From Roseivivax sp. THAF197b (GTDB taxonomy: Bacteria; Pseudomonadota; Alphaproteobacteria; Rhodobacterales; Rhodobacteraceae), in the NCBI RefSeq assembly GCF_009363255.1, contig NZ_CP045318.1, positions 2,593,501 to 2,657,500 of the forward strand: a stretch of 64,000 nucleotides of DNA, read 5' to 3'. Made by a program: the position numbers and the translations under genes. The number at the start of each line of letters is the position of its first letter. The stretch's first letter is position 1. Below, piece after piece: positions 20,578 to 36,877 of the stretch. The notes under the pieces are model-generated. The model ran no database searches. It was not told the origin of the DNA and saw only the letters and a list, made by a program, of their open reading frames with translations.

Positions 20578-21399
20578 ATGCAAGCCCCGAAACGTCAGCG
20601 CGGCCGCCCGAAGTCGCAATTCACCGAAAGCTCCGCCGGGACGCTGCAATCGCTCGATCGCGCGCTGTCGGTTTTGGTCGCCTTGTCGCGCGCGGGGCGG
20701 ATGAACCTGACCGATCTGGCGCTGGCCGTGGGCGTGCCCACCGCCACCACGCACCGCATCCTGATGACCCTGCAAAAGCACGATTTCGTGGCCTTCGACG
20801 AGGACCGGCAGGATTGGCTTATCGGGATCGAGGCGTTCCGCACGGGGGCGGCCTTCCTCAAACGCTCCAACCTCGTGGAGATCGGGCGACCGGTCATGCA
20901 GCTTCTGATGGAGGAGACGGGCGAGACCGCGAACCTCGCCGTACCTCAGAAGGCCGAAGTGGTGTTCGTTGGACAAATCGAGACGCTGAACCCGATCCGC
21001 GCCTTCTTCCCGCCGGGCACACGGACGGCGATGCATGCCTCTGGTACCGGCAAGGCGATCCTCGCCGAATTGCCAGAGGACAAGGTAAAGCGGCTTTTGA
21101 CGTCCGCAGGCCTTGAGCAGTTCACGGCCAACACCCGCACGACGCCTGCCGATCTTTTTGCGGATCTGGAGCGCACGCGCGCCCGCGGCTGGTCCTTCGA
21201 CCGGGAGGAACGCTACGAAAGCATGTCCTGCATCGGCAGCGCGATCTTCGACGAGATGGGCAATCCCTGCGCAGGCGTGTCGATCTCGGGCCCGAGCATC
21301 CGCTTCGACGAGGATCGCATCGCGGCCTTCGGCACGGCCGTCAAGAATGCCGCCGACGAGATCACGCGCCGCCTTGGCGGCCTGCCGCCCGAACGTTAA
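20578..21399 (+). CDS. bhcR: IclR-family regulator of the beta-hydroxyaspartate cycle
   Basis: A 273-residue IclR protein. After a basic N-terminus (PKRQRGRPKSQF) a winged helix occupies about residues 20-85 (MNLTDLALAVGVPTATTHRI). The C-terminal effector domain contains MHASGTGKAILAELP and a CIGSAIFDEMGNPCAGVSISGP core. It is divergent from bhcABCD, as in known BHAC clusters. Its stop codon overlaps that of the convergent MFS gene by two bases. Confidence 0.92.
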   Translation: MQAPKRQRGRPKSQFTESSAGTLQSLDRALSVLVALSRAGRMNLTDLALAVGVPTATTHRILMTLQKHDFVAFDEDRQDWLIGIEAFRTGAAFLKRSNLVEIGRPVMQLLMEETGETANLAVPQKAEVVFVGQIETLNPIRAFFPPGTRTAMHASGTGKAILAELPEDKVKRLLTSAGLEQFTANTRTTPADLFADLERTRARGWSFDREERYESMSCIGSAIFDEMGNPCAGVSISGPSIRFDEDRIAAFGTAVKNAADEITRRLGGLPPER

Positions 21400-22631
21400 G
21401 CGCCGCCCTGCCCCGCCTCCCGAGCCATCTGGCGGCGCAACCGGGCCAGCAGGATCAGCAACAGCGCCGACACGGCCGTCACCGACAGAAGCGGCAGCGC
21501 GAAACTGCCCGATTGGTGCGCAAGCGCGCCCAGCGTCACCGGCCCCAGCACACCGCCCATTTCGGCGGCGGTGAAGAACATGCCGCCCGCAAGGCCAAGC
21601 CGCTCCTCGGGCACGCCCGGCGTCTCCATCAGAAGCATGATCGCCACCGTCATCATCGATCCGCGCGCGATGCCCTGCAGCATGAGACCGGGGGCGAGAA
21701 GCGCCGGATGGGCACTTTGCAGCATCAGGCTGGCGGCAAGGACGGCCCCGAACAGCCCGGCCATGACGAGAAGCCGCCGCTCGGGCGTGGCAAGACGCGG
21801 GATCACCAGCACGCCGAGGATGCCGATCGCCGAAGGCAGCGCCGCCCAGTATCCCGCCGCCACCGCCGAAAAGCCGTAGCTGCGCAGGATCTCGGGAATC
21901 CAGTTGTTCAGCCCGTGATTGATGAAGAACACGCCCACGGACATCACGAGGATCAGTTGCACCTGCTTGAGGCCCACGATCTCGCCAAAGGCCGAGAGGT
22001 TGTACTTGCTGGCGCCTGCGCCCGGTCCGATCTCGCTGGCACGCCGGCGTGATACGGCCCACCAGATCAGCGCCGAGAGTAGCACCAGCCCGGCATAGAC
22101 GACCATGGCGGCGCGCCAGTTCTGCCCCACGAGCGGCATGACCACCGAATTGGTGATCGCCAGCGCCACCAGCCCGCCGAGATAGGGCCCGGTCACGTAG
22201 AGCCCCATCGCGCTCGCCCGTGCCTTGCCCTGATAAAGCTTGGCGATCACGACAGGCGCCCCGACCGAAATCATCGGCCCCCCGGCCCCGAAGAGCGCCA
22301 CCGCGAGAAAGAGCTGCAGCGGCGTCTCCGCCAGCCCGCGCAGGCCCGCAGACGCCGCCATCAGGAGGCAGGCGATGACCAGCATCCGCCGCGCCCCCAT
22401 CCGGTCGAGCAACATGCCGCACGGCACGGCGCACAGGATATACGTCAGCGGCCAGGCGCCCAAAATGAGGCCCATGCCCGCATTGGTCACGGCGATGTCT
22501 TCGCGGATTTCGGTGACCAGAGGCGCGGTCGAGGCGATGATCACGCCGAAGCTGAAATAGACGCCCCATACCCCGGCAAGCACCGGCCAGCGCGCGGACG
22601 CCGCACCCTCCGTCTCCTCTGCAATACTCAC
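21396..22631 (-). CDS. MFS transporter
   Basis: A 411-residue major facilitator with about twelve hydrophobic segments, including the MFS loop GMLLDRMGARRML between spans 2 and 3. The GTG at 22631 is chosen because it follows the acyl-CoA dehydrogenase stop by five bases and gives a normal N-terminus; a longer frame would overlap that gene. It resembles CynX/NimT-type and organic-anion carriers. As last gene of the catabolic operon it may import or export a pathway acid. Confidence 0.85.
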   Translation of the reverse strand: MSIAEETEGAASARWPVLAGVWGVYFSFGVIIASTAPLVTEIREDIAVTNAGMGLILGAWPLTYILCAVPCGMLLDRMGARRMLVIACLLMAASAGLRGLAETPLQLFLAVALFGAGGPMISVGAPVVIAKLYQGKARASAMGLYVTGPYLGGLVALAITNSVVMPLVGQNWRAAMVVYAGLVLLSALIWWAVSRRRASEIGPGAGASKYNLSAFGEIVGLKQVQLILVMSVGVFFINHGLNNWIPEILRSYGFSAVAAGYWAALPSAIGILGVLVIPRLATPERRLLVMAGLFGAVLAASLMLQSAHPALLAPGLMLQGIARGSMMTVAIMLLMETPGVPEERLGLAGGMFFTAAEMGGVLGPVTLGALAHQSGSFALPLLSVTAVSALLLILLARLRRQMAREAGQGGA

Positions 22632-22636
22632 CCGGC

Positions 22637-23836
22637 TCAGTAGCTGCGCGGCAAGCCGAGGACGTGCTGACCGAGGAAGCCGTAGATCATGTTCTTCGAG
22701 ATGGGCGCCGTCTGGTAAAGCCGCGCCTCGCGCCACTTCCGCTCGATCCCGTATTCACGTGCGAAAGCAAAGCCGCCATAGGTCTGCATGCAGACCTCGG
22801 CACAAGCCCAGGACGCGTCCGCGGCGAGCAGCTTGGCCATGTTGGCCTCCGCCCCCGCCTTCTCTCCCGCATCGAACATCGCGGCGGCCTTGGTGACCAT
22901 CAGCTCGGCGGCCTGCGCCTTGGCATAGGCATCGGCGATGGGGAACTGGATGCCCTGGTTCGCACCGATGGGCTTGCCGAAGACCGAGCGGTCATTGGCA
23001 TATTCACAGGCCTTCTCGATGAAGTATTTCGCGTCCCCGATGCATTCATAGGCGATCAGGATCCGCTCCGCGTTCATGCTGTCGACGATGTAGCGGAAAC
23101 CCTTGCCCTCTTCGCCCACGAGCGTATCGGCGGGGATCTCGACATTGTCGAAGAACACCTCGCAGGTGTTGTGGTTGATCATCGCGTCGATCTTGGACAG
23201 CGAGAGGCCGTTCTTCTTGGCCTCGTTCATGTCGATCAGGAAGACGGACATGCCGTCGGAGCGTTTCTTGCATTCCGCAGCGGGCGTGGTGCGCGCCAGA
23301 AGCAGTATGAGGTCCGACTCGAAAGCGCGGCTGGTCCAGACCTTTTGGCCGTTGACGATATAGGTGCCGTTCTCGGTCTTCTCAGCCTTGGTTTTGAGCT
23401 GAGTCGTGTCGCTGCCCGTCGTGGGTTCGGTCACGCCGAAGGCCTGCAGGCGCAGCTCACCGGTGGCGATCTTGGGCAGGTATTTCTGCTTCTGCTCCTC
23501 CGAGCCGTGCTTCAGCACCGTGCCCATCGTGTACATCTGCGCGTGGCAGGCCGCGGCGTTGCAGCCTTTGACGTGGATCGTCTCAAGCACCGCACCGGCG
23601 GCGGCCAACGGCAGGCCCGAGCCGCCATATTCCTCGGGGATGAGCGCACCCAGGAAGCCGCTTTCGGTCAGCGCATTCACGAAGTCATGCGGATAGGCAT
23701 CTTCCTTGTCGAGCTTCAGCCAGTATTCGTTCGGGAAATCGTCGCAGAGGCGCCCGACCGCGTCGCGGATATCGCCCCAGGCAGGGTTCACGGGCATCGA
23801 GGTCATGTCGGGGTCGTATTGGTTCATGTCTGGCAT
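22637..23836 (-). CDS. Acyl-CoA dehydrogenase
   Basis: A 399-residue FAD enzyme of the acyl-CoA dehydrogenase family. Clear features are the N-terminal helical part with GALIPEEYGGSGLPL, the FAD segment QAFGVTEPTTGSDTTQLKT, VNGQKVWTSRA, and the C-terminal MQTYGGFAFAREYGIERKWR. It introduces an alpha-beta double bond into an acyl-CoA; the chain is not deducible. It lies three bases after the CoA-transferase gene, suggesting that its substrate is made by that enzyme. Confidence 0.9.
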   Translation of the reverse strand: MPDMNQYDPDMTSMPVNPAWGDIRDAVGRLCDDFPNEYWLKLDKEDAYPHDFVNALTESGFLGALIPEEYGGSGLPLAAAGAVLETIHVKGCNAAACHAQMYTMGTVLKHGSEEQKQKYLPKIATGELRLQAFGVTEPTTGSDTTQLKTKAEKTENGTYIVNGQKVWTSRAFESDLILLLARTTPAAECKKRSDGMSVFLIDMNEAKKNGLSLSKIDAMINHNTCEVFFDNVEIPADTLVGEEGKGFRYIVDSMNAERILIAYECIGDAKYFIEKACEYANDRSVFGKPIGANQGIQFPIADAYAKAQAAELMVTKAAAMFDAGEKAGAEANMAKLLAADASWACAEVCMQTYGGFAFAREYGIERKWREARLYQTAPISKNMIYGFLGQHVLGLPRSY

Positions 23837-23839: not shown

Positions 23840-25027
23840 TCAGATGACGTTCTTGGCGCGCAGCGCGGCGATCTCGTCGGCGCTCAGACCGACCTCACCG
23901 AGGATCGCATCGGAATGCTCGCCCGCATCCGGGGCGGAGACATAGACCGACGCGGGCGTGCGCGACAGTTTCACGGGTTGCGCGACGAGTTTCGTCTCAC
24001 CGCGCGCCGGGTGTTCGATCGGGGCAGCCATGCCGAGATGCTGCACCTGCGGGTCCGCGAAGACCTCGTCCATCATGTAGATCGGACCGGCGGGCACGCC
24101 CATCTCTTCCAGCGCCTCGACCCACTGGGCCGTCGTGCGTTTGGCGAAGATGGGCTTCAGCAGGTTCCAAAGTTCGGGCCGATGTTCGAAACGTGCGGGA
24201 TTGGTGGCGTATTTCTCATCCGTGGCCCAGTCGGGCATGTCTATGAGTTCGCAGAAGGCCTGCCATTGCGCGTCGCTGCCGACGCCGAGATTGAGATAGC
24301 CGTCCTTCGTCGCCACCACGCCCATCGGCGTAACGTAGGGGTGATCGTTGCCGGAGCTTTGTGGCACCTCACCCTCGACAAGGTAGCGCGCCGCCTGGAA
24401 ATCCATCATCGCGATCTGCGCTTCGAGAAGTGAGCTTTGCACCCATTGCCCCTGACCCGACACGCTGCGTTCCTGGAGTGCCACGAGGATGCCAATGGCC
24501 GCGTAAAGGCCTGAGGAGCTGTCCGCCACCGCCGCCCCTGCCCGCATCGGGCCCTCTTCGGGATTGCCCGTGACGCCCATGAGCCCGCCCATGCCCTGCG
24601 CGATCTGGTCGAAACCGGCGCGCTTGGCATAGGGGCCATCCTGCCCAAAGCCCGAGATCGAGGCGAGTATGATGCGCGGGTTCACCTTTGCCAGATCGTC
24701 ATAGGCAATGCCAAGCCGGACCTTCACGTCGGGGCGGAAGTTCTCGACCACCACATCGGCGCTCTCGACCATGCGCAGGAACAGCGCGCGACCCTCCGGG
24801 GCCTTGAGGTTCAGCGTCAGAGACCGCTTGTTGCGGTGCAGGTTCAGCATGTCGTAGCCGTGCCGTGCGCCTGACACGCCCGCCGACGGATCGGCCCCAA
24901 CCGGGGCCTCGATCTTGATCACATCCGCACCGAAATCCGCAAGCACACGGCAGCAGGTGGGCCCTGCCCGCACGCGCGTCAGGTCCAGCACCTTGAGATT
25001 GCCCAGCGCGGTGGAGCGTTCTGCCAT
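23840..25027 (-). CDS. Class III CoA-transferase (CaiB/BaiF)
   Basis: A 395-residue family III CoA-transferase. The N-terminal LGNLKVLDLTRVRAGPTCCR, the NKRSLTLNLKAPEG segment and the aspartate in AVADSSSGLYAAIG, equivalent to the catalytic Asp of formyl-CoA transferase, are present. Such enzymes move CoA between carboxylic acids such as oxalate, succinate, mesaconate or itaconate. Its ATG overlaps the upstream deacetylase stop by one base (TGATG). It likely activates the acid produced by that gene or brought in by the importer. Confidence 0.9.
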   Translation of the reverse strand: MAERSTALGNLKVLDLTRVRAGPTCCRVLADFGADVIKIEAPVGADPSAGVSGARHGYDMLNLHRNKRSLTLNLKAPEGRALFLRMVESADVVVENFRPDVKVRLGIAYDDLAKVNPRIILASISGFGQDGPYAKRAGFDQIAQGMGGLMGVTGNPEEGPMRAGAAVADSSSGLYAAIGILVALQERSVSGQGQWVQSSLLEAQIAMMDFQAARYLVEGEVPQSSGNDHPYVTPMGVVATKDGYLNLGVGSDAQWQAFCELIDMPDWATDEKYATNPARFEHRPELWNLLKPIFAKRTTAQWVEALEEMGVPAGPIYMMDEVFADPQVQHLGMAAPIEHPARGETKLVAQPVKLSRTPASVYVSAPDAGEHSDAILGEVGLSADEIAALRAKNVI

Positions 25028-25929
25028 CACGCCGCCTCCATCACGCGGGCGGCGCCATCGGGGTCGGCGGCGGCGTACCAGTCGCCGATCCCGCTCGAGG
25101 TCAGAAAGATCGTGTCATCGCGCGCCGTCAGCAGATCGAGCGCTTGCTCGAAATGATGCGCGATATGCGGCACGCCGATGATATGCGGATGCAGCGCGAG
25201 GGTCATGACGCGGGGCTGCGATTTCAGCTCGCGTTCGAACACCGCGAGCGTCGCCTCGACGCGTTTGAGATATTCATCCGTGCTGCCATTCTGGATCGCG
25301 TAGACCGGCACGTCGTTCAGCTCGAACGAATAGGGCAGCGCCATGAGCGGCCCGTGTTTGGTTTTCATCCATGTTGGCAGGTCGTCGAGCACCCAATCGT
25401 GCAGGAACTCGATGCCTTCGGACTTCAGGATGTCGGGCGTGTGTTCCGTCTCTCCAAGGCCCGGCCCCAGCCAGGCGCGGGGCCGTGCGCCGCCCGCCTG
25501 TTCCAGCCGGTCGAGGCAGCGGCGGATCACGTCGGCCTCATCCTCGGCCTGTTTCAGCGATTGCTGGAAGAAGCCGTGGCCCACCAGCTCCCAGCCTGCG
25601 CCCATCACCGCCTCCATCAGCGTTGGATAGACGTCCGCCACCTGCGCATTGAGAAACGCCGAACATGGCAGCCCCTTGCGATCCAGCATGTCGAGGATGC
25701 GCGGCATCCCGCAGCGCAGACCGTATTCCACCCAGGAGAAGTTCGGCACATCGGGCGGCGCGGGCGTGGCCCCGTGCGGCGCGGGAATGATGCCGCGCGG
25801 CATGGCGCGCTCGATGGGCCAGTATTCAATGTTCATGACGATATGAACGATCAGGTTCTTACCCTCGGGCCCTGTCAGGGGCGCGCGGTCCGAGGACAGC
25901 TGGAACGGGATACGCGGGTTCGACGGCAT
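25027..25929 (-). CDS. Polysaccharide-deacetylase-fold amidohydrolase, PuuE or cyclic-imide-hydrolase like
   Basis: A 300-residue protein of the NodB-fold hydrolases that include PuuE allantoinase and bacterial imidase. Typical segments are VHIVMNIEYWPIERAMPRGI, WVEYGLRCGMPRILDML, WELVGHGFFQQSL and LHPHIIGVPHIAHHF. It differs strongly from the true PuuE at 10110-11519. Its place between an importer and a CoA-transferase argues for ring opening of a cyclic amide or imide, not for polysaccharide work. The specific substrate is inferred only. Start at 25929 follows the potA-like stop by four bases. Confidence 0.8.
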   Translation of the reverse strand: MPSNPRIPFQLSSDRAPLTGPEGKNLIVHIVMNIEYWPIERAMPRGIIPAPHGATPAPPDVPNFSWVEYGLRCGMPRILDMLDRKGLPCSAFLNAQVADVYPTLMEAVMGAGWELVGHGFFQQSLKQAEDEADVIRRCLDRLEQAGGARPRAWLGPGLGETEHTPDILKSEGIEFLHDWVLDDLPTWMKTKHGPLMALPYSFELNDVPVYAIQNGSTDEYLKRVEATLAVFERELKSQPRVMTLALHPHIIGVPHIAHHFEQALDLLTARDDTIFLTSSGIGDWYAAADPDGAARVMEAA

Positions 25930-25933: not shown

Positions 25934-27055
25934 TTACTCCACGTGCAGGCGGATATCGGAGGCCTTCCAGGACAGGCGCACGGGTGCGCCAGCTTCGGGC
26001 AGGCTGTCATTGCTATCGGCAATAACACGGCTGACCATCTCCGTCCCGTCCGGAAGGCGCGCCATATGCGAGGTCGTGAGGCCCAGATAGACGCTCTCGT
26101 CGTACGAACCGATGATCGACAGCCCGTCGGCGGGGGCGTTCGTCCCATTCACCCGGTCGAGCGCCACGCATTCGGACCGGATCGAGAGGTTGACCTCCTG
26201 CCCGTCCCTGACGCTGAGCCCGCGCTTGTCGACCTTTAGCTTGGAGCCCGCCACATCCACGGTGACCGCGCTGCCATTGGCTTCGGCCACCTTGCCCTTC
26301 AGCATGTTGTTCTCGCCAACGAAGCTTGCCGTGAAGGTCTTTTCGGGCGCACGGTAGATGTCCCGCGCGCGGCCGAACTCCACCAGATCACCATTGGCAA
26401 TCAGCGCGATGCGGTCCGCGACGGTCATCGCCTCTTCCTGGTTGTGGGTGACGTGGATGAAGGTGATGCCCACCTTTTCCTGAAGGTGCTTGAGCTCAAG
26501 GCACATATCCTTGCGGAGCTGCGCGTCGAGGGCCGCCAGCGGCTCGTCCAGAAGCAGGATATCGCGGTCGAGCACGATGGCGCGGGCAAGCTGCACCCGC
26601 TGCTGCTGACCACCCGACAGCTCATGCGGCTTGCGGTGGGTGAATTGCGACAGCCCCACCTGTTCGAGCGCGTAATCCACCTTCTCCGCGATCTGTGCCT
26701 TTGGCATTCCCGCCACCTTCAGCCCGTAGCCCACGTTCTGCGTGACCGTCATATGCGGGAATAGCGCGTAGGCCTGAAAGACCATGGTGGTCGGGCGCTT
26801 GTCGGGCGGAAGATGCCCGACGGATTTGCCATGCAGCAGGATCTCGCCCCTGGTGGGTTTGTGAAACCCGCCGATGGTGCGCAGAAGCGTCGTCTTGCCA
26901 CCGCCGGACGGACCCAGCAGCACGAAATACTCGCCCGCAGCAATGGTCACGTTCACATCCTTCAGGGCGACGAAATCGCCGTAATGCTTGGCTAGGTTGC
27001 GCACCTCGACGGCAGGGACAGTCTGGTCATTCATGGCGTTCGTTCCGTTGGTCAT
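25934..27055 (-). CDS. potA: Spermidine/putrescine-type ABC transporter ATPase (PotA-like)
   Basis: A 373-residue ATPase. Walker A GPSGGGKTT, the signature LSGGQQQRV and Walker B ILLLDEPLAALD are intact. The C-terminal third is a TOBE-type regulatory domain (GENNMLKGKV, NLSIRSECVAL). Its ATG overlaps the permease stop (ATGA). The PotABCD-like class also imports opines, betaines and other cations or organic acids, so polyamine is not proven. Confidence 0.9.
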   Translation of the reverse strand: MTNGTNAMNDQTVPAVEVRNLAKHYGDFVALKDVNVTIAAGEYFVLLGPSGGGKTTLLRTIGGFHKPTRGEILLHGKSVGHLPPDKRPTTMVFQAYALFPHMTVTQNVGYGLKVAGMPKAQIAEKVDYALEQVGLSQFTHRKPHELSGGQQQRVQLARAIVLDRDILLLDEPLAALDAQLRKDMCLELKHLQEKVGITFIHVTHNQEEAMTVADRIALIANGDLVEFGRARDIYRAPEKTFTASFVGENNMLKGKVAEANGSAVTVDVAGSKLKVDKRGLSVRDGQEVNLSIRSECVALDRVNGTNAPADGLSIIGSYDESVYLGLTTSHMARLPDGTEMVSRVIADSNDSLPEAGAPVRLSWKASDIRLHVE

Positions 27056-27936
27056 GACATCACCGGTTCGGATTTGGCGCGGGCAACGCGGCTCAGCGTC
27101 TCGGCGCGGATCATGGTGAAAAGGATGATGGAGCCGATCACGGCGATGGCGACGAAACTGACCATGGCGGACATGGCGTAGCTTTGCGGCGACATGCCGG
27201 TATTCAGCATCTGGCTGATCAGCACCGTCGTAAAGGTGTCGAACCCGCCCTTCAGAAGGCTCGTGCGGGTGTATTCGTTGAAGACGAGGATCACCGTGAA
27301 TGCGCAGGCTGAAAAGACCCCGGCGCGGATCTGTGGAAACTCGATATCCCAAAAGGCGCGCCAGCCATTGGCCCCGCAGGCCCGCGCGGCCTCGGTCTGT
27401 TCGGGGCGGTAGCGGCCCATGGTGATCAGGATCACCACGAAGCTGTAGGGGATCGTGTAGATGATCAGCCCGATCGTGGCGGTCAGGAAGGACAGGCGGA
27501 ACCAGCTGTCGAAAATCCCGGTGCCGATCTGATCGCCAAGCCAGATGAAGGCGATGTTGAGGTTCTTGAAGAACACCAGAAGCGCAGAGCCCAGGATATC
27601 CGGCGGCACGAAAAGCGGGGCCAGCAGCAGGAAGACCGGGAAGAGCTTGTTATCGGCCGCCTTGTAGTATTTCGCCGCCAGAAGCGCCATCGGCACGGTG
27701 ATTACCGTGACCACCAGCGCCAGCATCAGCGTCCAGCGCAGCGCGCCGATCAGCAACTCGTCCGAGAAGATCAGCCCATACCATTCCCAGGTGAAGACGT
27801 ATTCGTTCGCCCCGAAGCCGTTCTGGTTGAACGAAACGTACATGACGTACATCACCGGCGTCATCAGGGTCAGCACGACGAAGAGCAGATACGCCCATTT
27901 CAGCTTGTGCAGCCACGGATTGTCATAATCGTTCAT
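27052..27936 (-). CDS. potC: Spermidine/putrescine-type ABC permease (PotC-like)
   Basis: A 294-residue membrane protein with six hydrophobic segments and the coupling loop EAARACGANGWRAFWDIEFPQI. It belongs to the PotC branch of BPD_transp_1 permeases. The ATG at 27936 is eight bases beyond the PotB-like stop and is preceded by a GGCGTT stretch only, so its ribosome site is weak. It forms the channel with the PotB-like protein. Confidence 0.9.
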   Translation of the reverse strand: MNDYDNPWLHKLKWAYLLFVVLTLMTPVMYVMYVSFNQNGFGANEYVFTWEWYGLIFSDELLIGALRWTLMLALVVTVITVPMALLAAKYYKAADNKLFPVFLLLAPLFVPPDILGSALLVFFKNLNIAFIWLGDQIGTGIFDSWFRLSFLTATIGLIIYTIPYSFVVILITMGRYRPEQTEAARACGANGWRAFWDIEFPQIRAGVFSACAFTVILVFNEYTRTSLLKGGFDTFTTVLISQMLNTGMSPQSYAMSAMVSFVAIAVIGSIILFTMIRAETLSRVARAKSEPVMS

Positions 27937-28865: not shown

Positions 28866-30029
28866 TCAGGCCGCCTGCACCCGAGCCCACCAATCCTGGT
28901 AGGCGCGAATGTTCGTGGGGAAGACGTTCTGCCAGGAATTGCCCGCGACCGCGCGGCGGGCCTGCTTGCGCTCCAGCCGCTCGGCCATGATGGCCTTGGT
29001 GTCATCGTCGAACATGTCGGGATTGGCATCCACGTAGTGCTGCACGCCCTCCATCTGCGGGGTGAAGCCGAGGCCCGCGAGCGTCTGCGCGCCGAACCAG
29101 GGCGAGAGGTACACGTTGGCGAGGCTGTAGAAGGCCTCCTCCATCCCGCGCTCCTGTCCGCCGCGGGTCAGCATGACGACGTTGTTCCAGCTCTGATGGC
29201 CTTCCTTCATGGTGCCGTAGCGGATGTCCTGCCCGTTCTTGCGGGCAGCGAAGATCTGGATGACCTCCCAGCACGAGCTGACCAACACCTCTTCGGATGA
29301 CAGAAGGTCTGCGCCGTTTTGCACACCATCCCAGAAGGTGCGGAAATGGCCCTTCTTCTTGAGGTCGATGAGGAATTCGCAGGTCTGGCGCACCTCGTCC
29401 TCGGACATGTCCGACGGGTTGTCGATCGAGCCCTTGCCCGATTGCTTGAGGTAGATCGCGGTGTTCGTGAGCGTCGGGCCGAAATCGTTCTGCATGGCCG
29501 CACGGCCGCGGAACTGGCTGTCGAAAAGCGCCTCCCAAGAAGTCAGCTCCTCGCCGATCTCGCCGTAGTTGAAGGCAAGGCTGTCGGCGTTCGAGATATA
29601 GGGCACCGCGACGACCTGCCCGTCATAGCGGATCGTGTCGGCGGACATGCCGCCCTCCTGGTAGCTCGGCAGGATGTTCGCCCAGTTCGGGATCTTCGAG
29701 GTATCGAGCGGGACGATCGCGCCCTGGCTCGCCAGCGCATCCTCCATGCCGCCGCCATTGTCGGTCATGGCGTCGTAAAGCGCGTTGCCATCGCCCACGA
29801 CCATCTTCTGGATCGACTCGTCCGCGCGGGCGGATTTGGCGATGGCGTTGATGCCGATCCCGGACTGCCCTTCCATGTCGGACCAATCCTGCGCACCGAC
29901 CTTGGCGATGCCCGGCGCCCAGAGCTTGAGCGCCTCCTGCGCGCGGGCCGGCATGCCGACCGCGCCTGCGGCGGCCGCGGCGCCCATCAAGGCCATGAGC
30001 TGTCGGCGGGTGAAGTCTGCTTGGTTCAT
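28866..30029 (-). CDS. potD: Periplasmic extracellular solute-binding protein (PotD-like)
   Basis: A 387-residue binding protein. The N-terminus DFTRRQLMALMGAAAAAGAVG is a twin-arginine-type signal, so it may be exported folded by Tat. Mature features of the family include VPYISNADSLAFNYGEI and the C-terminal WWARVQAA. It is the first gene of the minus-strand catabolic operon. Its ligand is unknown; the ATG at 30029 is preferred because it opens the signal sequence. Confidence 0.9.
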   Translation of the reverse strand: MNQADFTRRQLMALMGAAAAAGAVGMPARAQEALKLWAPGIAKVGAQDWSDMEGQSGIGINAIAKSARADESIQKMVVGDGNALYDAMTDNGGGMEDALASQGAIVPLDTSKIPNWANILPSYQEGGMSADTIRYDGQVVAVPYISNADSLAFNYGEIGEELTSWEALFDSQFRGRAAMQNDFGPTLTNTAIYLKQSGKGSIDNPSDMSEDEVRQTCEFLIDLKKKGHFRTFWDGVQNGADLLSSEEVLVSSCWEVIQIFAARKNGQDIRYGTMKEGHQSWNNVVMLTRGGQERGMEEAFYSLANVYLSPWFGAQTLAGLGFTPQMEGVQHYVDANPDMFDDDTKAIMAERLERKQARRAVAGNSWQNVFPTNIRAYQDWWARVQAA

Positions 30030-30363
30030 CTGTGTCACTCCTGTTGGGTCTGCCGTTACGCGGCGGACAAATGAGCCTCGTCCGATCTTCCCGTCGGCCT
30101 GGGCGCGTGATCGCGGCCCGGACATGGCGCAGCCCTGGATTTCCAGCTGAAGACACCGCCGAGCACTGCAAAGATTATGTCGACAAAAAAATCATATGGC
30201 AAAATATTTCTGTATACAGCTGACGATCTCAATAAATCGCTGAATTTAAGAGGATAGTCGCAGATAACGGGCGGCATTCAGGAAGTATGACACTGGAATT
30301 TTCCTTGATCTGCGGACGAAAAAGACAGAACGTAACGCTCATAAACCCATTTTTGTATGCGAA
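30030..30363. promoter_or_regulatory. Divergent control region of the catabolic locus
   Basis: An AT-rich 334-base stretch between the divergent importer operon and the MmgE/PrpD operon. It holds a perfect palindrome CTGTATACAG at 30210-30219 and TTTGTATGC at 30352-30360, the reverse complement of a site upstream of the GntR gene (36926-36934). Both suit operators of the locus regulator. No confident -35/-10 pair was assigned. No coding signal is seen here. Confidence 0.5.
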
Positions 30364-31743
30364 ATGACCAAAAAATCGCCATCAGTCGAATCACAGCTGA
30401 TCGAGATCTGCCGCAGGCCCATTCCCGCACAGGTCGCGGCGCGAGCACGGCTGCACCTGCTCGATTGGCTGGGCTGTATCCTTGCCGCGCGCCGCTCGGA
30501 GGCGGCGGAACGCATGGCGCGCGCGGTACTGACCGAGTCTGATGATCTGTTGACCGCAGGTCTGTCGGCCACGCGGCTGGATGCGCAAACTGCGGCCTTG
30601 TGCCTTGGGACCTTGGGCAACGTGCTGGAAATGGACGATCTGCACCGGGCCTCCATCCTGCATCCCGGCGATACGGTCTGCGCGGCGGCGCTGGCCACGG
30701 CCTTGAGGCGTCCGGTAACGGGCCGCGCGCTTCTCGACGCGCTCGTGCGCGGATACGAGATTGCCATACGGATCGGCACCGCCGCCGCGGCGGGCGGCTA
30801 TACGCCCTTCTACAATTCCGGAACCTGCGGGGTTTTCGGCGCGGCCATGGCGGCGAGCGAGGTATCGGGGCTGGATGAAAGCGCCCTGGCCGATGCGCTG
30901 GGACAGGCCGGAATGCAGGCGGCGGGCATCTGGCAATGCCGGTTGGAGCCCGGCTTCTCGAAACAGCTCGCAACAGCTCATGCCGCCCGGGCGGGCGTCT
31001 TCGCAGCAGAGCTCGGCGGCGCGGGTTTCGCCGGGCCACGGGCGATCCTCACCGGGAAGATGGGCTTCTTCGCAAGCTACTACCCCGGAGCGGATCTGGC
31101 CCATCTGACCGCACTGCCCGCGCGCGAGGCCTGGGCCCTGACCGAGATGAGCGTCAAGCCCTTCCCGGCCTGCCGTCATACCCATCCCGCGATTTCAGCC
31201 CTCCTGTCCCTGCGCCCGCGCATCGACAGTTCAGCCATCGCGCGGATCGACATTCACACCTATCGCGCCGCGCTCGATTTCTGCGACAACCCCGAGCCCG
31301 AAACGCCGGGGGAGGCGCGCTTCAGCCTCCAGCACACGGCTGCCATATCGCTGTTGCGCGGCGCGCCCGGTCTTGCGGATTTCGAAGGCGCGGTGCTCAC
31401 GGCCCCCGATGTGGCGGCCCTGCGCGAGAAGGTGCATTTGCATGTCGATCCCGCCTGTGACGCGGCCTTCCCGCGCGATTATGGCGCATCCGTCTCGGTC
31501 ACCGGGGCTCAGGGCGCGGTGCAGGTTGCGGACTGCCCGCAAGCCTGGGGCGATCCCGAGAACCCGATGTCGGAGGCGGAAATCGTGACGAAGTTCCGCG
31601 CCAATATCCGCCATGGGAGCGTGCCCGAGGCTGCGGCCTCCCCGCTCGTGGACGCGCTCCTCGATTTGCCCGACGCGCCCGATCTGACCCACTTGAAAGA
31701 AGCGCTGACCGCCGCCCTTTCCCCTGCACCGGAGTATGCCTGA
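30364..31743 (+). CDS. MmgE/PrpD family protein
   Basis: A 459-residue protein of the family that includes 2-methylcitrate dehydratase, cis-aconitate decarboxylase and iminodisuccinate epimerase. Family-like segments are LHLLDWLGCILAARR, EMDDLHRASILHPGDTVCAAALA, PFYNSGTCGVFGAA and VKPFPACRHTHPAI. These enzymes act on tricarboxylate- or dicarboxylate-like acids without cofactor. The specific reaction is unknown. No ribosome site precedes the ATG, and the candidate operator ends three bases before it, so the message may be leaderless or the start may lie later. It heads the plus-strand operon. Confidence 0.85.
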   Translation: MTKKSPSVESQLIEICRRPIPAQVAARARLHLLDWLGCILAARRSEAAERMARAVLTESDDLLTAGLSATRLDAQTAALCLGTLGNVLEMDDLHRASILHPGDTVCAAALATALRRPVTGRALLDALVRGYEIAIRIGTAAAAGGYTPFYNSGTCGVFGAAMAASEVSGLDESALADALGQAGMQAAGIWQCRLEPGFSKQLATAHAARAGVFAAELGGAGFAGPRAILTGKMGFFASYYPGADLAHLTALPAREAWALTEMSVKPFPACRHTHPAISALLSLRPRIDSSAIARIDIHTYRAALDFCDNPEPETPGEARFSLQHTAAISLLRGAPGLADFEGAVLTAPDVAALREKVHLHVDPACDAAFPRDYGASVSVTGAQGAVQVADCPQAWGDPENPMSEAEIVTKFRANIRHGSVPEAAASPLVDALLDLPDAPDLTHLKEALTAALSPAPEYA

Positions 31744-32132
31744 TGCATCTGAAGCCCGCCGTTCCCTTCCACGTGCTCGACCCCGATAGCGGCTGGGAGC
31801 CCGTGCCCGGCGGTGCGCCGGGTGTGGAGCAGAAGATGCTGTCCGGCGCGCTCGACGAGACGGCGAAAACGGGCGTGCGCACGCGGCTCATCCGGTTTCA
31901 GCCGGGCACGATCGCGCCGAACGTCTTCCTGCACGATTACTGGGAGGAGGTGTACCTGATCTCGGGTCGGCTCGTGAATGGCTGCGACGCGGACGCAAAA
32001 GGCGGCACGGAATTCACCGCCCCCGCCTATGCCTGCCGCCCGCCCGGAACGGAGCATGGGCCCTTCACCTCGGCGGAGGGCTGCATCTTCTTCGAGATCC
32101 AGTATTACATCGGAGATGACGATGGATCTTGA
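31743..32132 (+). CDS. Cupin-domain protein
   Basis: A 129-residue single-cupin protein. The beta-barrel region RLIRFQPGTIAPNVFLHDYWEEVYLISGRL carries His and Glu in a cupin-type arrangement, and PPGTEHGPFTSAEGC carries the second motif with His. Metal binding is likely but the reaction is unknown; isomerase, decarboxylase or sensor roles are all possible. Its ATG overlaps the MmgE/PrpD stop (TGATG) and its end overlaps the SDR start by 11 bases. Confidence 0.8.
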   Translation: MHLKPAVPFHVLDPDSGWEPVPGGAPGVEQKMLSGALDETAKTGVRTRLIRFQPGTIAPNVFLHDYWEEVYLISGRLVNGCDADAKGGTEFTAPAYACRPPGTEHGPFTSAEGCIFFEIQYYIGDDDGS

Positions 32133-32904
32133 CCTGGCGGGCAAACGAGCGCTGATCACTGGCGGCTCCAAGGGGATCGGACGCGCCATCGCGGCGGCCC
32201 TTCTGGCGGAAGGCGCGCATGTGACGCTGGCAGCGCGCGATGCGGACATCCTGGCGGCGACCCGGGCGGATCTGTCAGCCGAGGCTCCGGGCCGGGTGGA
32301 GGTCGTCGCGGCCGATCTCGGCACCGATGCGGGGCGCCTGGCCCTGGTCGAGGCCGCGGGCACGCCGGATATCCTCGTGAACAATGCAGGCGCGATCCGG
32401 GCGGGCAAGCTCGGCGATCTCGCGATCAACGATTGGCGGCAGGATTGGGAGTTGAAGGTCTTCGGCTACATCCATCTGTGCCAGATCCTGCAGCCCGCGA
32501 TGGCCAAGCGCGGCACGGGCACGATCCTCAACATCATCGGTATGGCGGGACGGGCGAACCGGGCGGCCTATATCTCGGGCTCCGCGGCCAATGCCGCATT
32601 GATCGCCTTCACACAGGCGCTTGGCGCCGAGGCGCAGGGGCAAGGTCTTCGGGTCTTCGGCATCAACCCGTCGCCCACGCTGACCGACCGGATGACCGAT
32701 TTCATGAAGCGCAAGGCGCAGGCCGAATATGGCGATGAGAGCCGCTGGCGCGAGATGGTCGAACCGGACCGCTTCCCCTATGGCCGCCCCGCCCAGCCCG
32801 AAGAGGTCGCGGCCTTGGCCTGCATGCTGTTGTCTCCGCATGCGGGATACCTCAATGGGTGCGTGGTTGATCTCGATGGAGGCGGACAATGGACGGGCAC
32901 ATGA
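32122..32904 (+). CDS. Short-chain dehydrogenase-like protein with altered active site
   Basis: A 260-residue SDR. The NAD(P) loop GGSKGIGRA and the NNAGAIRAGK motif are intact. The usual catalytic Ser and the Lys of YxxxK are missing: the region reads NIIGMAGRANRAAYISGSAA, keeping only the Tyr. It may therefore be a non-oxidoreductase SDR or use another mechanism. GGAG at 32112-32115 favours the ATG at 32122 over that at 32116. It overlaps the cupin gene and the enoyl-CoA hydratase gene. Confidence 0.88.
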   Translation: MDLDLAGKRALITGGSKGIGRAIAAALLAEGAHVTLAARDADILAATRADLSAEAPGRVEVVAADLGTDAGRLALVEAAGTPDILVNNAGAIRAGKLGDLAINDWRQDWELKVFGYIHLCQILQPAMAKRGTGTILNIIGMAGRANRAAYISGSAANAALIAFTQALGAEAQGQGLRVFGINPSPTLTDRMTDFMKRKAQAEYGDESRWREMVEPDRFPYGRPAQPEEVAALACMLLSPHAGYLNGCVVDLDGGGQWTGT

Positions 32905-33707
32905 ACGAAACGCGGGACCTCGCGGAGGGCAAGCTGCAGCTAACGCGGCAGGACGGGGTTGCGAAGATCGTCTTCAACAATCCCGCCCGGCTGAATGCGA
33001 TGAGCATGGCCATGTGGCAGGCGCTTGGCGATGTCTGCGCAGAGTTCGGTGAAGACGACAGCTTGCGCGTCGTGACCCTGGAAGGCGCGGGCGAGAAGGC
33101 CTTTGTCGCGGGTGCGGATATCTCCGAATTCGGCAAAACGCGTGGCTCCGCCTATGCGGCAGCGGCGTATAACGCAACCGTCGCGCGGGCAGAGGCCCTG
33201 CTCGAGGCGCTGCCGGTGCCGACGCTGGCGCTGGTGCGAGGCTATTGCGTGGGCGGCGGGCTGGGCATCGCGATGCGCTGTGATCTGCGCATGGCGCGCG
33301 AGGATGCCCGCTTTGCGATCACCCCGGCGAAGCTTGGCCTCGGCTACGGGTTTGACGGGGTCGCGTCGCTCAATCGCAGGCTGGGCCATGCGGTGACGGC
33401 GGATCTTCTGTTCACCGGGCGCAAGGTGCCGGCCGCCGAGGCGCTGAGCCGGGGTATCTGCGATTTCGTCTACCCGCCGGCAAGCTTCGATGCCGATTGC
33501 GCGGCTTACGTGGCCACCATGGCCGCGAATGCCCCGCTCACGATCCGCGCCGCCAAGGCAGCCCTTCTGGAACTCGCCAAGCCCGAGACCACCCAGGATC
33601 CCGCGCGCATCGCGGCGATGATCGAGACCTGCTACAACAGCGCCGATTACCAGGAGGGCCAGCAGGCCTTCGCCGAGAAGCGCCCGCCCGTGTTCCAGGG
33701 AAAATGA
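32889..33707 (+). CDS. Enoyl-CoA hydratase/isomerase family protein
   Basis: A 272-residue crotonase-fold protein. Oxyanion-hole segments AGADISEFG and GYCVGGGLGIAM are clear. At the usual first catalytic Glu the sequence reads ITPAKLGLGYGFDG, with Ala where many hydratases have Glu, so hydration is not certain and another crotonase reaction is possible. GGAGG before 32889 sets this start; an ATG at 32901 in ATGA overlap with the SDR stop is the alternative. It probably acts on a CoA ester of the pathway. Confidence 0.87.
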   Translation: MDGHMNETRDLAEGKLQLTRQDGVAKIVFNNPARLNAMSMAMWQALGDVCAEFGEDDSLRVVTLEGAGEKAFVAGADISEFGKTRGSAYAAAAYNATVARAEALLEALPVPTLALVRGYCVGGGLGIAMRCDLRMAREDARFAITPAKLGLGYGFDGVASLNRRLGHAVTADLLFTGRKVPAAEALSRGICDFVYPPASFDADCAAYVATMAANAPLTIRAAKAALLELAKPETTQDPARIAAMIETCYNSADYQEGQQAFAEKRPPVFQGK

Positions 33708-34552
33708 CCATGTCCGGGGGGCCGCAGGACAGTGCCATCGGGCGCACCGAGGAGGCGCGTGACACGCTCGATCTGCGCCAGGCGCAGCTCATGCAGCTGA
33801 CGCTCGATGCGCCGGTGAGCCTTGAGGCGGGCGATCCGCTGCCGCCCTTCTGGCATTACCTCTATTTCAATCCGCGCATCCGGGCGTCGGATCTCGGGGC
33901 CGACGGGCATGAACGCCTCGGCCGCTTCATTCCGGATTTCGGTCTGCCGCGCCGCATGTGGGCGGGCGGACGGGTCAGCATCGACGCGCCCTTGCGCCTG
34001 GGCGAGGCTGCGAAAAAGGTCTCCACGATCCGCGCGATCGAAGAGAAAGAGGGCCGGTCCGGGCGGCTCTGTTTCGTGACCGTGGATCACGATTTCAGCG
34101 TGGATGGGGTCCACCGCCTGCGCGAAAGGCAGAACATCGTCTATCGCGATCCCCCTGCCCCGGATGCCCCCCCGCCGCCGGGCAAAGCCGCGCCGGACAA
34201 TGCCGAGTTCCGCCAGGTGATCTCGCCCGATCCGGTTCTGCTCTTTCGCTATTCCGCGCTGATCTTCTACGGCCACCGCATCCATTACGACGCAGATTAC
34301 ACCCGCGATGTCGAAGGCTATCCGGGCCTTGTCGTGCATGGACCGCTGACCGCGACATTGCTGGTGCAACTGGGCCTGTCGCACATGGCGGGCCGCACCC
34401 TCGGCGCGTTCGATATCCGCGCCATGGCGCCGCTTTTCGCAACGGCCCCCTTCACGCTGGAAGGCCGCCGGACCGAGACCGGCGTCGATCTCTGGGCGCG
34501 CACGCCCGAGGACACCATCGCCATGACCGTGACGCTGCAGGCCGCGCCATGA
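33704..34552 (+). CDS. FAS1/HTD2-type MaoC-fold acyl-CoA dehydratase
   Basis: A 282-residue double hot-dog protein like mesaconyl-C4-CoA or itaconyl-CoA hydratases. The C-terminal segment FYGHRIHYDADYTRDVEGYPGLVVHGP is the family hallmark with the Asp/His active-site pattern, and LPRRMWAGGRVSID lies in the N-terminal half. It would add or remove water on a branched dicarboxylyl-CoA; the substrate is not proven. Its ATG overlaps the crotonase stop (ATGA). Confidence 0.85.
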   Translation: MTMSGGPQDSAIGRTEEARDTLDLRQAQLMQLTLDAPVSLEAGDPLPPFWHYLYFNPRIRASDLGADGHERLGRFIPDFGLPRRMWAGGRVSIDAPLRLGEAAKKVSTIRAIEEKEGRSGRLCFVTVDHDFSVDGVHRLRERQNIVYRDPPAPDAPPPPGKAAPDNAEFRQVISPDPVLLFRYSALIFYGHRIHYDADYTRDVEGYPGLVVHGPLTATLLVQLGLSHMAGRTLGAFDIRAMAPLFATAPFTLEGRRTETGVDLWARTPEDTIAMTVTLQAAP

Positions 34553-34571
34553 CCAACCGGGAGATAATCCG

Positions 34572-36116
34572 ATGACCAATCCGCTTTACGACACGCTGAT
34601 CGGAGAGCGCGCTGGCAGCGCGGCCCCGCTTCTGCACCTCGCAGATGGCACCACGCGCAGCTATGCCGATATCGCCGCATTGGCCGCCCGGTTTGCAGGA
34701 CTTCTGCGCGCGCGGGGATTGGACAAGGGCGACCGGCTGGCGATGCAATGCCCCAAATCTTCCGAGGCCTTCGCGCTCTATCTCGCCTGCCTGCAAGCGG
34801 GCGTGATCTTCCTGCCGCTGAACACGGCCTACACGCCGGACGAGATCGCGTATTTCGTGGGTGATGCGACGCCGAAGATCGTGGTGGCCGACCCCGACGC
34901 CGCAGCCGCCTTGCAGCCCGTCTGCGACAAGGCAGGCGCCGCCCTTCTGACCCTGGATGACAAAGGCCAGGGCAGCTTTGTCGAGGCCGCGGAAGGCGTG
35001 TCGCCCATGACCGACGTGGCGGAGTGTGACACCGACGATCTCGCGTGTTTCCTCTATACCTCCGGGACGACGGGCCGCTCCAAGGGGGCGATGCTCACGC
35101 AGGGCAACCTTTTGTCCAATGCGCAGATCCTGACAGAGACCTGGCGCTTCACCGGGGAGGACGTGCTGCTGCACGCGCTGCCGATCTTCCATGCCCATGG
35201 CCTTTTCGTTGCCTGCAACGTGGTGATGATCGCGGGCGCCTCGATGATTTGGCTGCCGGGCTTCACCGTCGATGGGGTGCTCGATGCCCTGCCGCGCGCC
35301 ACGACGATGATGGGCGTGCCGACCTTCTATACCCGTCTTCTGGACGCGCCCGGCTTCACCCGCGAGGCGGCAGGGCATATGCGCCTGTTCACCTCGGGCA
35401 GTGCGCCGCTCCTGGCCGAGACGCATGAGCGTTTCCGCGCCCGCACCGGTCAGGCCATTCTCGAACGCTACGGCATGACCGAGACGGGGATGAACACCTC
35501 GAACCCCTATGACGGCGAACGCCGCGCGGGCACGGTGGGCTTCCCGCTCGCGGGCACAGAGATCCGGATCATCGACGAGAAAAGCGGCGAGGAAGCACCA
35601 CGCGGCCAGACCGGCATGATCGAGGTGCGCGGCCCCAACGTCTTCAAGGGCTATTGGCAGATGCCCGAGAAGACGGCCGAGGAGTTGCGCGACGACGGGT
35701 TCTTCATCACCGGCGATCTGGGGCGCATCGATGACGATGGCTACGTGACCATCGTGGGCCGCGAGAAGGATCTGATCATCTCGGGCGGCTACAACATCTA
35801 CCCCAAGGAGGTGGAGCAATTGCTCGACGCGCAGCCCGGTATCCGGGAAAGCGCCGTGATCGGCGTGCCGCACCCGGATTTCGGCGAAGGGGTGGTTGCG
35901 GTTCTCGTGGCAGAAGATGCGCCCGCGCCCGACCTGATCGCGATCCGCGCCGAGGTGGCGTTGCGGCTGGCCAATTACAAGCGCCCCAAGCATTACGTGA
36001 CGGTGCCCGAATTGCCGCGCAACACGATGGGCAAGGTGCAGAAAAACGCGTTGCGTCAGACCTTTGACGGGCTGTTCTCCGATGCGAACGCGAGCCGGAA
36101 ACGCGCAGGCGCGTAA
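34572..36116 (+). CDS. matB: AMP-forming acyl-CoA synthetase, malonyl-CoA synthetase (MatB)-like
   Basis: A 514-residue adenylate-forming ligase. The P-loop-like YTSGTTGRSKGAMLTQGN, RYGMTETGMNTSNPYDGERR, GDLGRIDDDGYVTIVGREKD and the C-terminal catalytic Lys in PRNTMGKVQKNALR are intact. The NTSNPYDGERRAGTVGFPL region is typical of malonate-CoA ligases, although this class can also accept methylmalonate and related acids. It ends the plus-strand operon and offers a second way of making acyl-CoA besides the class III transferase. Confidence 0.85.
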   Translation: MTNPLYDTLIGERAGSAAPLLHLADGTTRSYADIAALAARFAGLLRARGLDKGDRLAMQCPKSSEAFALYLACLQAGVIFLPLNTAYTPDEIAYFVGDATPKIVVADPDAAAALQPVCDKAGAALLTLDDKGQGSFVEAAEGVSPMTDVAECDTDDLACFLYTSGTTGRSKGAMLTQGNLLSNAQILTETWRFTGEDVLLHALPIFHAHGLFVACNVVMIAGASMIWLPGFTVDGVLDALPRATTMMGVPTFYTRLLDAPGFTREAAGHMRLFTSGSAPLLAETHERFRARTGQAILERYGMTETGMNTSNPYDGERRAGTVGFPLAGTEIRIIDEKSGEEAPRGQTGMIEVRGPNVFKGYWQMPEKTAEELRDDGFFITGDLGRIDDDGYVTIVGREKDLIISGGYNIYPKEVEQLLDAQPGIRESAVIGVPHPDFGEGVVAVLVAEDAPAPDLIAIRAEVALRLANYKRPKHYVTVPELPRNTMGKVQKNALRQTFDGLFSDANASRKRAGA

Positions 36117-36151
36117 ACGCTCGGGTTCGTAAAGGCGCGGGCGCGCGCGGC

Positions 36152-36877
36152 TCAGGCCGCGTCGCCTCCCGCATCGGAGGTCTTGAGCCGGGCTGCAACA
36201 CGCGAGGCCCCGGCCAGCAGATGGGCCGACATCACGCTTGAGGCCCAGTCCGGCGCGCGCGCCTCGATGGCGTCGATGATCTCGGCATGGTGGTTGAGGC
36301 TGCGCCGCAGGTCCTTTTCGGAGAACATCGAATAGGTCCGCACGACCATGCTGACATCGAGCGCGGTGGTCATCAGCGCGGTCAGGCGCGGAGACCGCGC
36401 AGCCGCCACGATGGTGCGGTGAAATTCCTCGTTGGCCTCCGTCAGACGCTGATAGGCGGCCTGATCGCGGGGCGGCGTATCGGCCTGCATCGCGGCGTGG
36501 ATCCGGCGCAGGGCGGCGATATCCTCCTCGGTGGCAAGACGCGCGGCGCGCTGGACGGAATAGCACTCGACGAGGCGGCGGATCTCGTAGACCTGTTCGG
36601 CCTCGTCTTCGGGGAAATGCGCAACCCGCGTGGTGTAGCCGCTTTGCCGCTCGATGAAGCCTTCGAGGATGAGCCGCCCGATCGCTTCCCGAATGGGCGT
36701 GCGGCTCAGGCCCAGATCGTCCGAGAGGCGGGTCTCGGTCAGGCGTTCCCCTTCCTTCAGGCGGCCGGTCAGGATATCGTTGCGGATACCGTGATAGGCC
36801 TGCTCGGTGGCGTTCATCTTGGGCGGATTCGGGCTTTGCATCGGGTCACGCTTTGTCATTCGCGGGACATTCTGCAT
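36152..36877 (-). CDS. GntR/FCD-family transcriptional regulator
   Basis: A regulator of about 225-241 residues. The winged helix (ILTGRLKEGERLTETRLSDD, then LGLSRTPIREAIGRL) is followed by a helical FCD effector domain (EANEEFHRTIVAAA, RSLNHHAEIIDAI), which usually binds a metal and a carboxylate. Several in-frame ATGs (36877, 36859, 36841) lack clear ribosome sites, so the start is uncertain. It lies beside the catabolic locus, and sites resembling GCATACAAA in its own promoter recur in the divergent control region at 30030-30363, which suggests it controls that locus. Confidence 0.88.
   Translation of the reverse strand: MQNVPRMTKRDPMQSPNPPKMNATEQAYHGIRNDILTGRLKEGERLTETRLSDDLGLSRTPIREAIGRLILEGFIERQSGYTTRVAHFPEDEAEQVYEIRRLVECYSVQRAARLATEEDIAALRRIHAAMQADTPPRDQAAYQRLTEANEEFHRTIVAAARSPRLTALMTTALDVSMVVRTYSMFSEKDLRRSLNHHAEIIDAIEARAPDWASSVMSAHLLAGASRVAARLKTSDAGGDAA

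Follow-up and report, generated by a model that had tools for sequence, protein, structure and literature searches.

The DNA stretch analysed here, referred to throughout as the window, comprises 64,000 nucleotides from Roseivivax sp. THAF197b (assembly GCF_009363255.1, contig NZ_CP045318.1, positions 2,593,501 to 2,657,500), and our subject is a catabolic gene locus at window positions 21396-36877. Gene finding combined with Pfam and NCBIfam scans yielded 14 open reading frames (ORFs) with coding-like codon composition and one GntR/FCD gene. A minus-strand operon set encodes a major facilitator superfamily (MFS) transporter, an acyl-CoA dehydrogenase (ACAD), a class III CoA-transferase (CaiB), a PuuE-like hydrolase, and PotA, PotC, PotB and binding-protein components of an ATP-binding cassette (ABC) importer; a plus-strand set encodes an MmgE/PrpD protein, a Cupin_7 protein, a short-chain dehydrogenase/reductase (SDR), a crotonase-fold protein of the enoyl-CoA hydratase family (ECH), an itaconyl-CoA-hydratase-like protein (Ich) and a MatB-like ligase. 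With the starts we chose, gaps within the operons range from -16 to +19 bp; 334 bp separate the divergent operons, and 35 bp separate MatB from the GntR gene. The initial annotation had described 14 tightly packed genes in two divergent operons with a GntR gene, and gene finding and the family scans bear this out; we add that the plus operon and the GntR gene converge and that one gene, left unnamed in the earlier text, encodes the MFS transporter. The features are as follows.

21396..22736, minus strand: MFS transporter (ORF; Pfam MFS_1, E=1e-38); true start near 22.63-22.64 kb, uncertain
22637..23827, minus strand: ACAD of the group holding the (RS)-methylsuccinyl-C4-CoA dehydrogenase-type (Mcd) genes of itaconate clusters (identity and tree)
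23840..25030, minus strand: class III CoA-transferase, CaiB (Pfam CoA_transf_3; groups with imide-type loci)
25027..25929, minus strand: PuuE/imidase-fold hydrolase, proposed cyclic imide hydrolase (Polysacc_deac_1)
25934..27064, minus strand: PotA-like ABC ATPase (Pfam/NCBIfam)
27052..27936, minus strand: PotC-like permease (Pfam/NCBIfam)
27945..28859, minus strand: PotB-like permease (Pfam/NCBIfam)
28866..30029, minus strand: PotD/F/YdcS-like binding protein (alignment with E. coli PotD and PotF)
30030..30363, no strand: divergent promoter region with TGTCGACA (30178), TGTATACA (30211) and TTGTATGC (30353) (motif search)
30364..31743, plus strand: MmgE/PrpD protein, proposed epimerase/isomerase of a substituted succinate (identity and residue check)
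31743..32132, plus strand: Cupin_7 protein (Pfam; alignment)
32122..32904, plus strand: SDR of the PRK06125 subfamily, proposed maker of an imide from a hydroxylactam (NCBIfam, 339.7 bits; cut-off 261)
32889..33707, plus strand: crotonase-fold protein (ECH) lacking the hydratase glutamates, ScpB-like Tyr kept (alignment)
33704..34552, plus strand: itaconyl/mesaconyl-C4-CoA hydratase-like protein, Ich (216 bits to PDB 8khg)
34572..36116, plus strand: MatB-like (methyl)malonyl-CoA synthetase (NCBIfam PRK07514; 4fuq/4gxq)
36152..36877, minus strand: GntR/FCD regulator (Pfam)
36926..36933, minus strand: second copy of TTGTATGC, in the gntR promoter (motif search)

Pfam and NCBIfam matches back the named families. 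The label of crotonase in the initial annotation is doubtful, both hydratase glutamates being missing. The cupin, the hydratase and the binding protein have no NCBIfam name above cut-off, and the Pfam match of the binding protein is also below cut-off. Statements on the MFS transporter rest on the Pfam match of the in-frame ORF and on the MFS protein of a related locus (L047, 'MFS45').

A contig scan with the PuuE-like protein of the window as query returned 36 loci, in which the constant presence of that protein is a matter of construction and no evidence by itself, because it was the query. The PuuE-CaiB-ACAD operon lies side by side with SDR-ECH-Ich in 11 of them (L044-L052, L067 and L079), and together with the window and genomes G032, G067, G145 and G283 (G032 and G145 being partial) this places both halves in 16 Rhodobacterales genomes; the arrangement is therefore not due to chance. 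In its fullest form, GntR-lyase-amidase faces MatB-Ich-ECH-SDR-cupin-MmgE, which diverges from binding protein-PotB-PotC-PotA-PuuE-CaiB-ACAD, and several relatives carry an MFS gene or, alternating with it at the same place beyond ACAD, a tripartite ATP-independent periplasmic (TRAP) transporter (DctPQM). Single components are missing here and there: MatB at L101 and L121 (genome of L052), MmgE and cupin at L030 and L102, MmgE at L079, Ich at L102 and the ABC genes at L030.

Independent occurrence of the two operons in most genomes would have spoken against the initial annotation, and the family genomes carrying the PuuE-like gene did not refute it in this way. The PuuE-like gene was found at E<=1e-90 in 9 of 394 genomes of the family; seven of these have Ich within about 10 kb, G145 has an adjoining SDR-ECH-MatB set, and the ninth, G194, is represented by a 5.7-kb contig with CaiB, PuuE-like and ECH genes. 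The association is looser in the other direction, since 10 of the 17 genomes with Ich at E<=1e-80 have no PuuE-like gene at the threshold above. Three of the four such genomes that we inspected (G222, G118 and G033) have no further recognisable part of the set near Ich, showing single weak matches to a transporter, an aldehyde dehydrogenase or MatB; in the fourth, G382 (L105), citramalyl-CoA lyase (CCL), CaiB and ACAD genes adjoin Ich, and a PuuE-like gene of 33% identity lies ~5 kb away. From these counts and linkages, the set is rare, and a PuuE-like gene implies the second operon, not the reverse.

Two further genes recur at the locus in relatives. Counted over 14 of the 16 genomes (L050 and L051 left out), the interval from the plus operon to GntR contains an amidase gene in 11 (G005, G032, G067, G145, G283 and G425-G430) and a CoA-ester-lyase gene in eight (G067, G283 and G425-G430), while G431 (L079) has the lyase ~10 kb and the amidase ~25 kb from the locus. 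Across all 36 loci, with related loci counted apart, an amidase falls within the stretch in 12, including five of SAR116 and the two of a Halomonas pair; the background is 5 amidase genes in the 4.24 Mb of the window genome (G000). Some of the loci scored with the amidase and CCL profiles had themselves contributed to those profiles.

Such linkage bears on the possibility that the locus handles a nitrogen-free, methylsuccinate-like acid, with the PuuE-like protein and amidase engaged in unrelated scavenging. The relationships of Mcd and Ich agree with that explanation, as do the genomes with Ich that have no PuuE-like gene and a TRAP transporter beside a cluster without a PuuE-like gene (L112). 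We nevertheless regard it as quite unlikely: the PuuE-like gene sits inside an operon, between PotA and CaiB, and in most of these genomes the amidase is flanked by the plus operon and GntR, although this argument is weakened by the use of the PuuE-like protein as query.

What, then, might the PuuE-like protein do? It scores 82.9 bits against the NCBIfam allantoinase PuuE model, whose equivalog cut-off is 424.6, and it is 28.7% identical to the allantoinase encoded elsewhere in the window, which scores in full; we therefore reject the assignment as allantoinase. By fold family we propose it as a candidate cyclic imide hydrolase. In Aspergillus, according to PMC9304392, an SDR-type dehydrogenase forms a cyclic imide, the ring is opened by an imidase that is likened to HpPgdA and PuuE, and an amidase acts next. 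A cyclic imide would suit our locus as well because the linked amidase fits a half-amide and a five-membered imide would yield a 1,4-dicarboxylate.

The importer and the SDR can be considered in the same light. Alignment to E. coli PotD and PotF shows that the tryptophan box, in line with that of PotD, is kept in the binding protein and that most of what we take to be the amine-binding acids have been lost: PotD E171 is replaced by P and D257 by N, and PotF D39, E185, D247 and D278 by P, P, I and N, respectively, with PotD D168 kept. We accordingly reject polyamine import by this Pot-type system; with its tryptophans kept and most of the acids gone, the binding protein would suit a ligand that is flat and neutral better than it would a polyamine. 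The SDR has a 49% identical homologue beside PuuE-like and amidase genes in Azospirillum (L022), where the order is amidase-CaiB-ECH-ABC-PuuE-SDR; in Variovorax (L021) the order is amidase-CaiB-ECH-PuuE-MmgE.

The substrate could instead contain another small C-N ring, such as a hydantoin, lactam, dihydropyrimidine or hydroxylactam, whose opening would give a branched dicarboxylate after more steps. PuuE itself acts on a ureide ring, L056 pairs a PuuE-like gene with apparent 5-oxoprolinase subunits (labelled by eye), and loci of SAR116 and Thalassobaculum hold PuuE-like and Pot genes with different partners. Because the repeated partner is a signature amidase, as fits a half-amide, and we noticed nothing among the 14 genes for a carbamoylase or for handling urea, we consider such a ring unlikely, if worth keeping in mind.

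Some of these loci are of interest in themselves. In L056 (9131-16217), which is alphaproteobacterial, ECH and TRAP genes accompany the PuuE-like gene, and this may perhaps be a lactam version. Six SAR116 loci (L060-L064 and L072) keep the Pot-type ABC and PuuE-like genes, with MmgE-cupin in five and amidase in five; no CaiB or ACAD gene lies within those stretches. Genome G431, which has the main locus, also carries at L122 (1553-15606) a second imide-like set of MmgE, amidase, ECH, ACAD, MmgE, PuuE-like and SDR genes, 30-44% identical to window or reference genes.

The remaining core of the locus resembles the machinery of methylsuccinate-type CoA-ester breakdown. According to Gonner and colleagues (PMC12290011), the dehydrogenase of an itaconate/methylsuccinate cluster acts on methylsuccinyl-C4-CoA, the MmgE/PrpD protein of the cluster is a methylsuccinate isomerase, and characterised MmgE/PrpD substrates have a common 1,4-dicarboxylate backbone. 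For our comparisons, the studied Cupriavidus and Pseudomonas Mcd, Ict and Msi were represented by plasmid-borne clusters that carry the same genes. The ACAD of the window is 57-62% identical to dehydrogenases of such clusters in Burkholderia stagnalis (L094), Paraburkholderia (L095), Phaeobacter (L112), Variovorax (L114, with MmgE), Paracoccus yeei (L115), G382 (L105) and Halomonas (L075), and they form one supported group in the tree (98/96; 25 rows), with inner branching unresolved and outgroups on long branches. Ich aligns with the solved itaconyl-CoA hydratase 8khg at 216 bits, keeps the GHRIHYD...EGYPGLVVHGPL stretch and is 44-50% identical to homologues in reference loci. CaiB is 70, 57 and 52% identical to its counterparts in imide-type loci of Azospirillum, Variovorax and a Rhodospirillaceae metagenome-assembled genome (group support 93/90).

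MmgE is 34% identical to the MmgE of the five-gene itaconate/methylsuccinate cluster of Variovorax (L114). The seven residues listed for the Pseudomonas enzyme can all be placed on the L114 protein by an offset of three; of these, the window protein keeps five (Glu91, His102, Tyr148, Lys202 and Lys266). It is a candidate isomerase for an acid related to methylsuccinate. Among the lyases, those linked to the locus in eight relatives form a clade of their own (98/98), and an unlinked CCL-like gene of the window genome (L083, C1:2432949) is 46-48% identical to several cluster CCLs and groups with them, as does the Halomonas gene; the L105 row in this comparison is a 79-residue piece.

The two halves of the proposed chemistry meet in Halomonas faecis (L075), where PuuE-like, amidase and TRAP genes occur with CCL-like, CaiB, Mcd and Ich genes and two MmgE genes; Billgrantia (L076) is alike. 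The CaiB of L075 belongs to the itaconate-cluster clade (67% to B. stagnalis), and one MmgE is 50% identical to that of L114. Judged by homology, then, Halomonas joins the full Ict-Mcd-Ich-Ccl-Msi set to imidase-like and amidase genes. Separately, an imide-type locus (L021) and an itaconate/methylsuccinate-type cluster (L114) occur together on one replicon of Variovorax VAI-C.

The plus operon also encodes proteins with less obvious roles. The crotonase-fold protein has Gly and Pro at the two positions of the hydratase catalytic glutamates, which we take to be Glu144/Glu164, and we reject a plain enoyl-CoA hydratase for this reason. Relative to ScpB, the methylmalonyl-CoA decarboxylase, whose residue roles we likewise assume, it keeps the Tyr and not the His. 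With the glutamates gone and the Tyr kept, it may be a decarboxylase or a C-C cleaving enzyme; a retro-Claisen enzyme or decarboxylase would be our guess, and one guess at its reaction is that it turns a side-chain-bearing CoA ester into succinyl-CoA or methylsuccinyl-CoA. Homologues lie beside CaiB and PuuE-like genes in Azospirillum and Variovorax, the one in Azospirillum keeping the first Glu, as does ScpB. In the cupin, His64, Glu69 and His105 are invariant in six aligned rows. MatB scores 782 bits to NCBIfam PRK07514 (subfamily cut-off 558) and 617 bits to 4fuq/4gxq.

A malonate or substituted-malonate route, in which MatB would form malonyl-CoA, the ScpB-like crotonase would decarboxylate it and the other genes would supply malonate, draws on that MatB score and on the crotonase residues, namely the missing glutamate pair and the kept Tyr. 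We find it very unlikely, since MatB is missing from the L101, L121, Azospirillum and Variovorax stretches, yet ECH persists there; the ScpB His is not kept, and no second MatB-pathway gene was seen.

The promoter motifs suggest common control of these genes. Within the 64-kb window, TTGTATGC occurs only twice, just before mmgE and in the gntR promoter, and TGTATACA occurs once. Similar sites lie near mmgE in L026, L044/L116, L045/L117, L047/L118, L049/L119, L067/L120, L052/L121, L101 and L029, and near gntR in L116, L117, L119, L120, L102 and L029, with the site about 330 bp off in L101. L050 and L051 have their sole site in mid-gap. L104 and L102 showed no site in the gap, and L118 and L121 showed none near gntR, as was also the case for L026 when the longer pattern was used. 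Sites at both promoters fit one autoregulating GntR protein, and these putative operator sequences are consistent with its control of the whole set.

Taken together, we favour, with somewhat more confidence than doubt, a locus that would take up a cyclic imide with a substituted five-membered ring (methylsuccinimide or a homologue) and degrade it through a methylsuccinate-type CoA-ester route. The Pot-type ABC system would import the imide, with the MFS or TRAP transporter carrying a related compound or acid, and the SDR may form the imide from a hydroxylactam. The PuuE-like enzyme would open the ring to a half-amide, from which the amidase, locus-linked in relatives and encoded elsewhere in the window genome, would release ammonia and a substituted succinate. 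MmgE could then epimerise this acid and the class III CoA-transferase convert it to a CoA ester, on which the Mcd-group dehydrogenase and then the Ich-type hydratase would act to give a citramalyl-CoA-like ester. A lyase of the CitE/Ccl/Mcl family, linked to the locus in relatives and unlinked in the window genome, would split this ester, yielding a 2-oxo acid together with an acyl-CoA. The crotonase-fold protein, cupin and MatB may deal with a side chain or side product, and GntR would control the gene set.

A number of observations weigh against this reading. No member of the PuuE-like family has a known activity, and the known methylsuccinate route has no step for the SDR, crotonase, cupin or MatB. 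Mcd and Ich are absent from the Azospirillum and Variovorax stretches, where CaiB and ECH are present; the Mcd group includes a Cupriavidus gene (L113) outside any itaconate cluster; CaiB is about 34% identical to itaconate-cluster CaiB, which forms a separate clade; and MmgE has Asn for His88 and Tyr for His152, two of the seven listed residues. Some relatives have incomplete sets, with no Ich, MmgE or cupin at the locus in G145, no ABC, MmgE or cupin genes in L030, and no MmgE in L079. The linked lyases are 30-40% identical to cluster CCLs, and a malyl-CoA-lyase-like protein encoded in G000 (L082, named by eye) is about as close to them, at 30-35% and comparable bit scores. Because the linked lyase is no nearer to citramalyl-CoA lyase than to this protein, the acid used in Rhodobacterales may be a homologue of methylsuccinate, and its ester a homologue of citramalyl-CoA. 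Finally, neither the window nor R. lentus, whose PuuE-like protein is 97% identical to that of the window, has an amidase or lyase at the locus. The unlinked relatives in G000 are an amidase on contig 2 (46%) and the CCL-like gene named above, which lies beside an apparent class I fumarase; the simplest reading of the gene orders is that both genes were lost from the locus in these two genomes.

The initial annotation had suggested ring opening of a cyclic imide or amide followed by CoA-ester breakdown of a branched or unsaturated dicarboxylate. The linked amidase, the linked lyase, the Mcd-group dehydrogenase and the Ich-type hydratase all point in the direction of an imide followed by a branched dicarboxylate, the support coming from comparison. 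Its statement that no described pathway has this set also stood: we found no description of such a route in the literature searched, which consisted of open-licence PMC papers. More broadly, and with slightly more doubt than confidence, we suggest that marine Rhodobacterales and Halomonas have an undescribed aerobic pathway in which alkyl-substituted cyclic imides pass through methylsuccinate-type intermediates and end as a 2-oxo acid and an acyl-CoA; imides would then be an environmental source of methylsuccinate or its homologues. These imides are possibly the maleimides and succinimides that arise from the decay of chlorophyll, bilins and haem. If so, marine bacteria would have a new carbon and nitrogen source, and cyclic imides would be a further, possibly natural, source of methylsuccinate-like acids. 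The imide reading also gives testable tasks to clades of CoA-transferase, MmgE/PrpD, CoA-ester lyase and crotonase for which we found no known function.

The surroundings of the locus in the window suggest yet another assignment. At 8662-21399, genes for a ureidoglycine aminohydrolase, a ureidoglycolate lyase and an allantoinase-OHCU decarboxylase fusion lie near bhcABCD and bhcR, each above its NCBIfam cut-off, and the region reads as a string for allantoin-to-glyoxylate assimilation with beta-hydroxyaspartate cycle (bhc) genes. An Opp/Nik-type ABC transporter at 1757-8597, beside the ureide genes, is possibly their importer. Since the bhc and ureide genes adjoin our locus, it might be part of allantoin-glyoxylate catabolism. 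We consider this highly improbable: of the stretches fetched, several of them ending close to the cluster, only those of the window and R. lentus (L027/L048) show the adjacency, and the window holds its own full-scoring allantoinase. With the adjacency confined to two Roseivivax genomes, a functional tie to bhc is not supported. On the other side, past the GntR gene, a large protein of the resistance-nodulation-division efflux type and an adaptor are encoded at 36962-41587 (judged by eye from the translation), and two ORFs of 873 and 1929 aa at 45435-53991 contain DUF11, the second also SdrD_B, and are surface-protein-like.

Our findings can be set beside four known systems. The PuuE allantoinase shares its fold family with the PuuE-like protein, which differs in the low identity and far sub-threshold score given above. 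Malonate mat loci combine MatB with a GntR-family regulator, and our locus likewise has a MatB-like ligase and such a regulator; no other mat gene was seen and the remaining genes are unrelated. The nicotinate enzymes HxnW-HxnM-HxnN of Aspergillus nidulans are alike in kind and order, a likeness drawn from their description in PMC9304392, where HxnM is likened to HpPgdA and PuuE; the Hxn route differs in leading from a six-membered imide to 2-hydroxyglutarate. The core of the locus resembles the itaconate/methylsuccinate cluster (ich-mcd-msi-ict-ccl) of Cupriavidus, Pseudomonas and Paraburkholderia (PMC12290011). Both have the same dehydrogenase group and hydratase family, together with a class III CoA-transferase and an MmgE/PrpD protein; a CoA-ester lyase is likewise shared where relatives of the window carry one. 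To this core the locus adds the PuuE-like hydrolase, the amidase of relatives, the Pot-type ABC system, SDR, crotonase, cupin and MatB, while its CoA-transferase and linked lyase come from other clades and its MmgE is only 34% identical. In our best reading, the locus is seen as a methylsuccinate-type pathway with an imidase-amidase front end.

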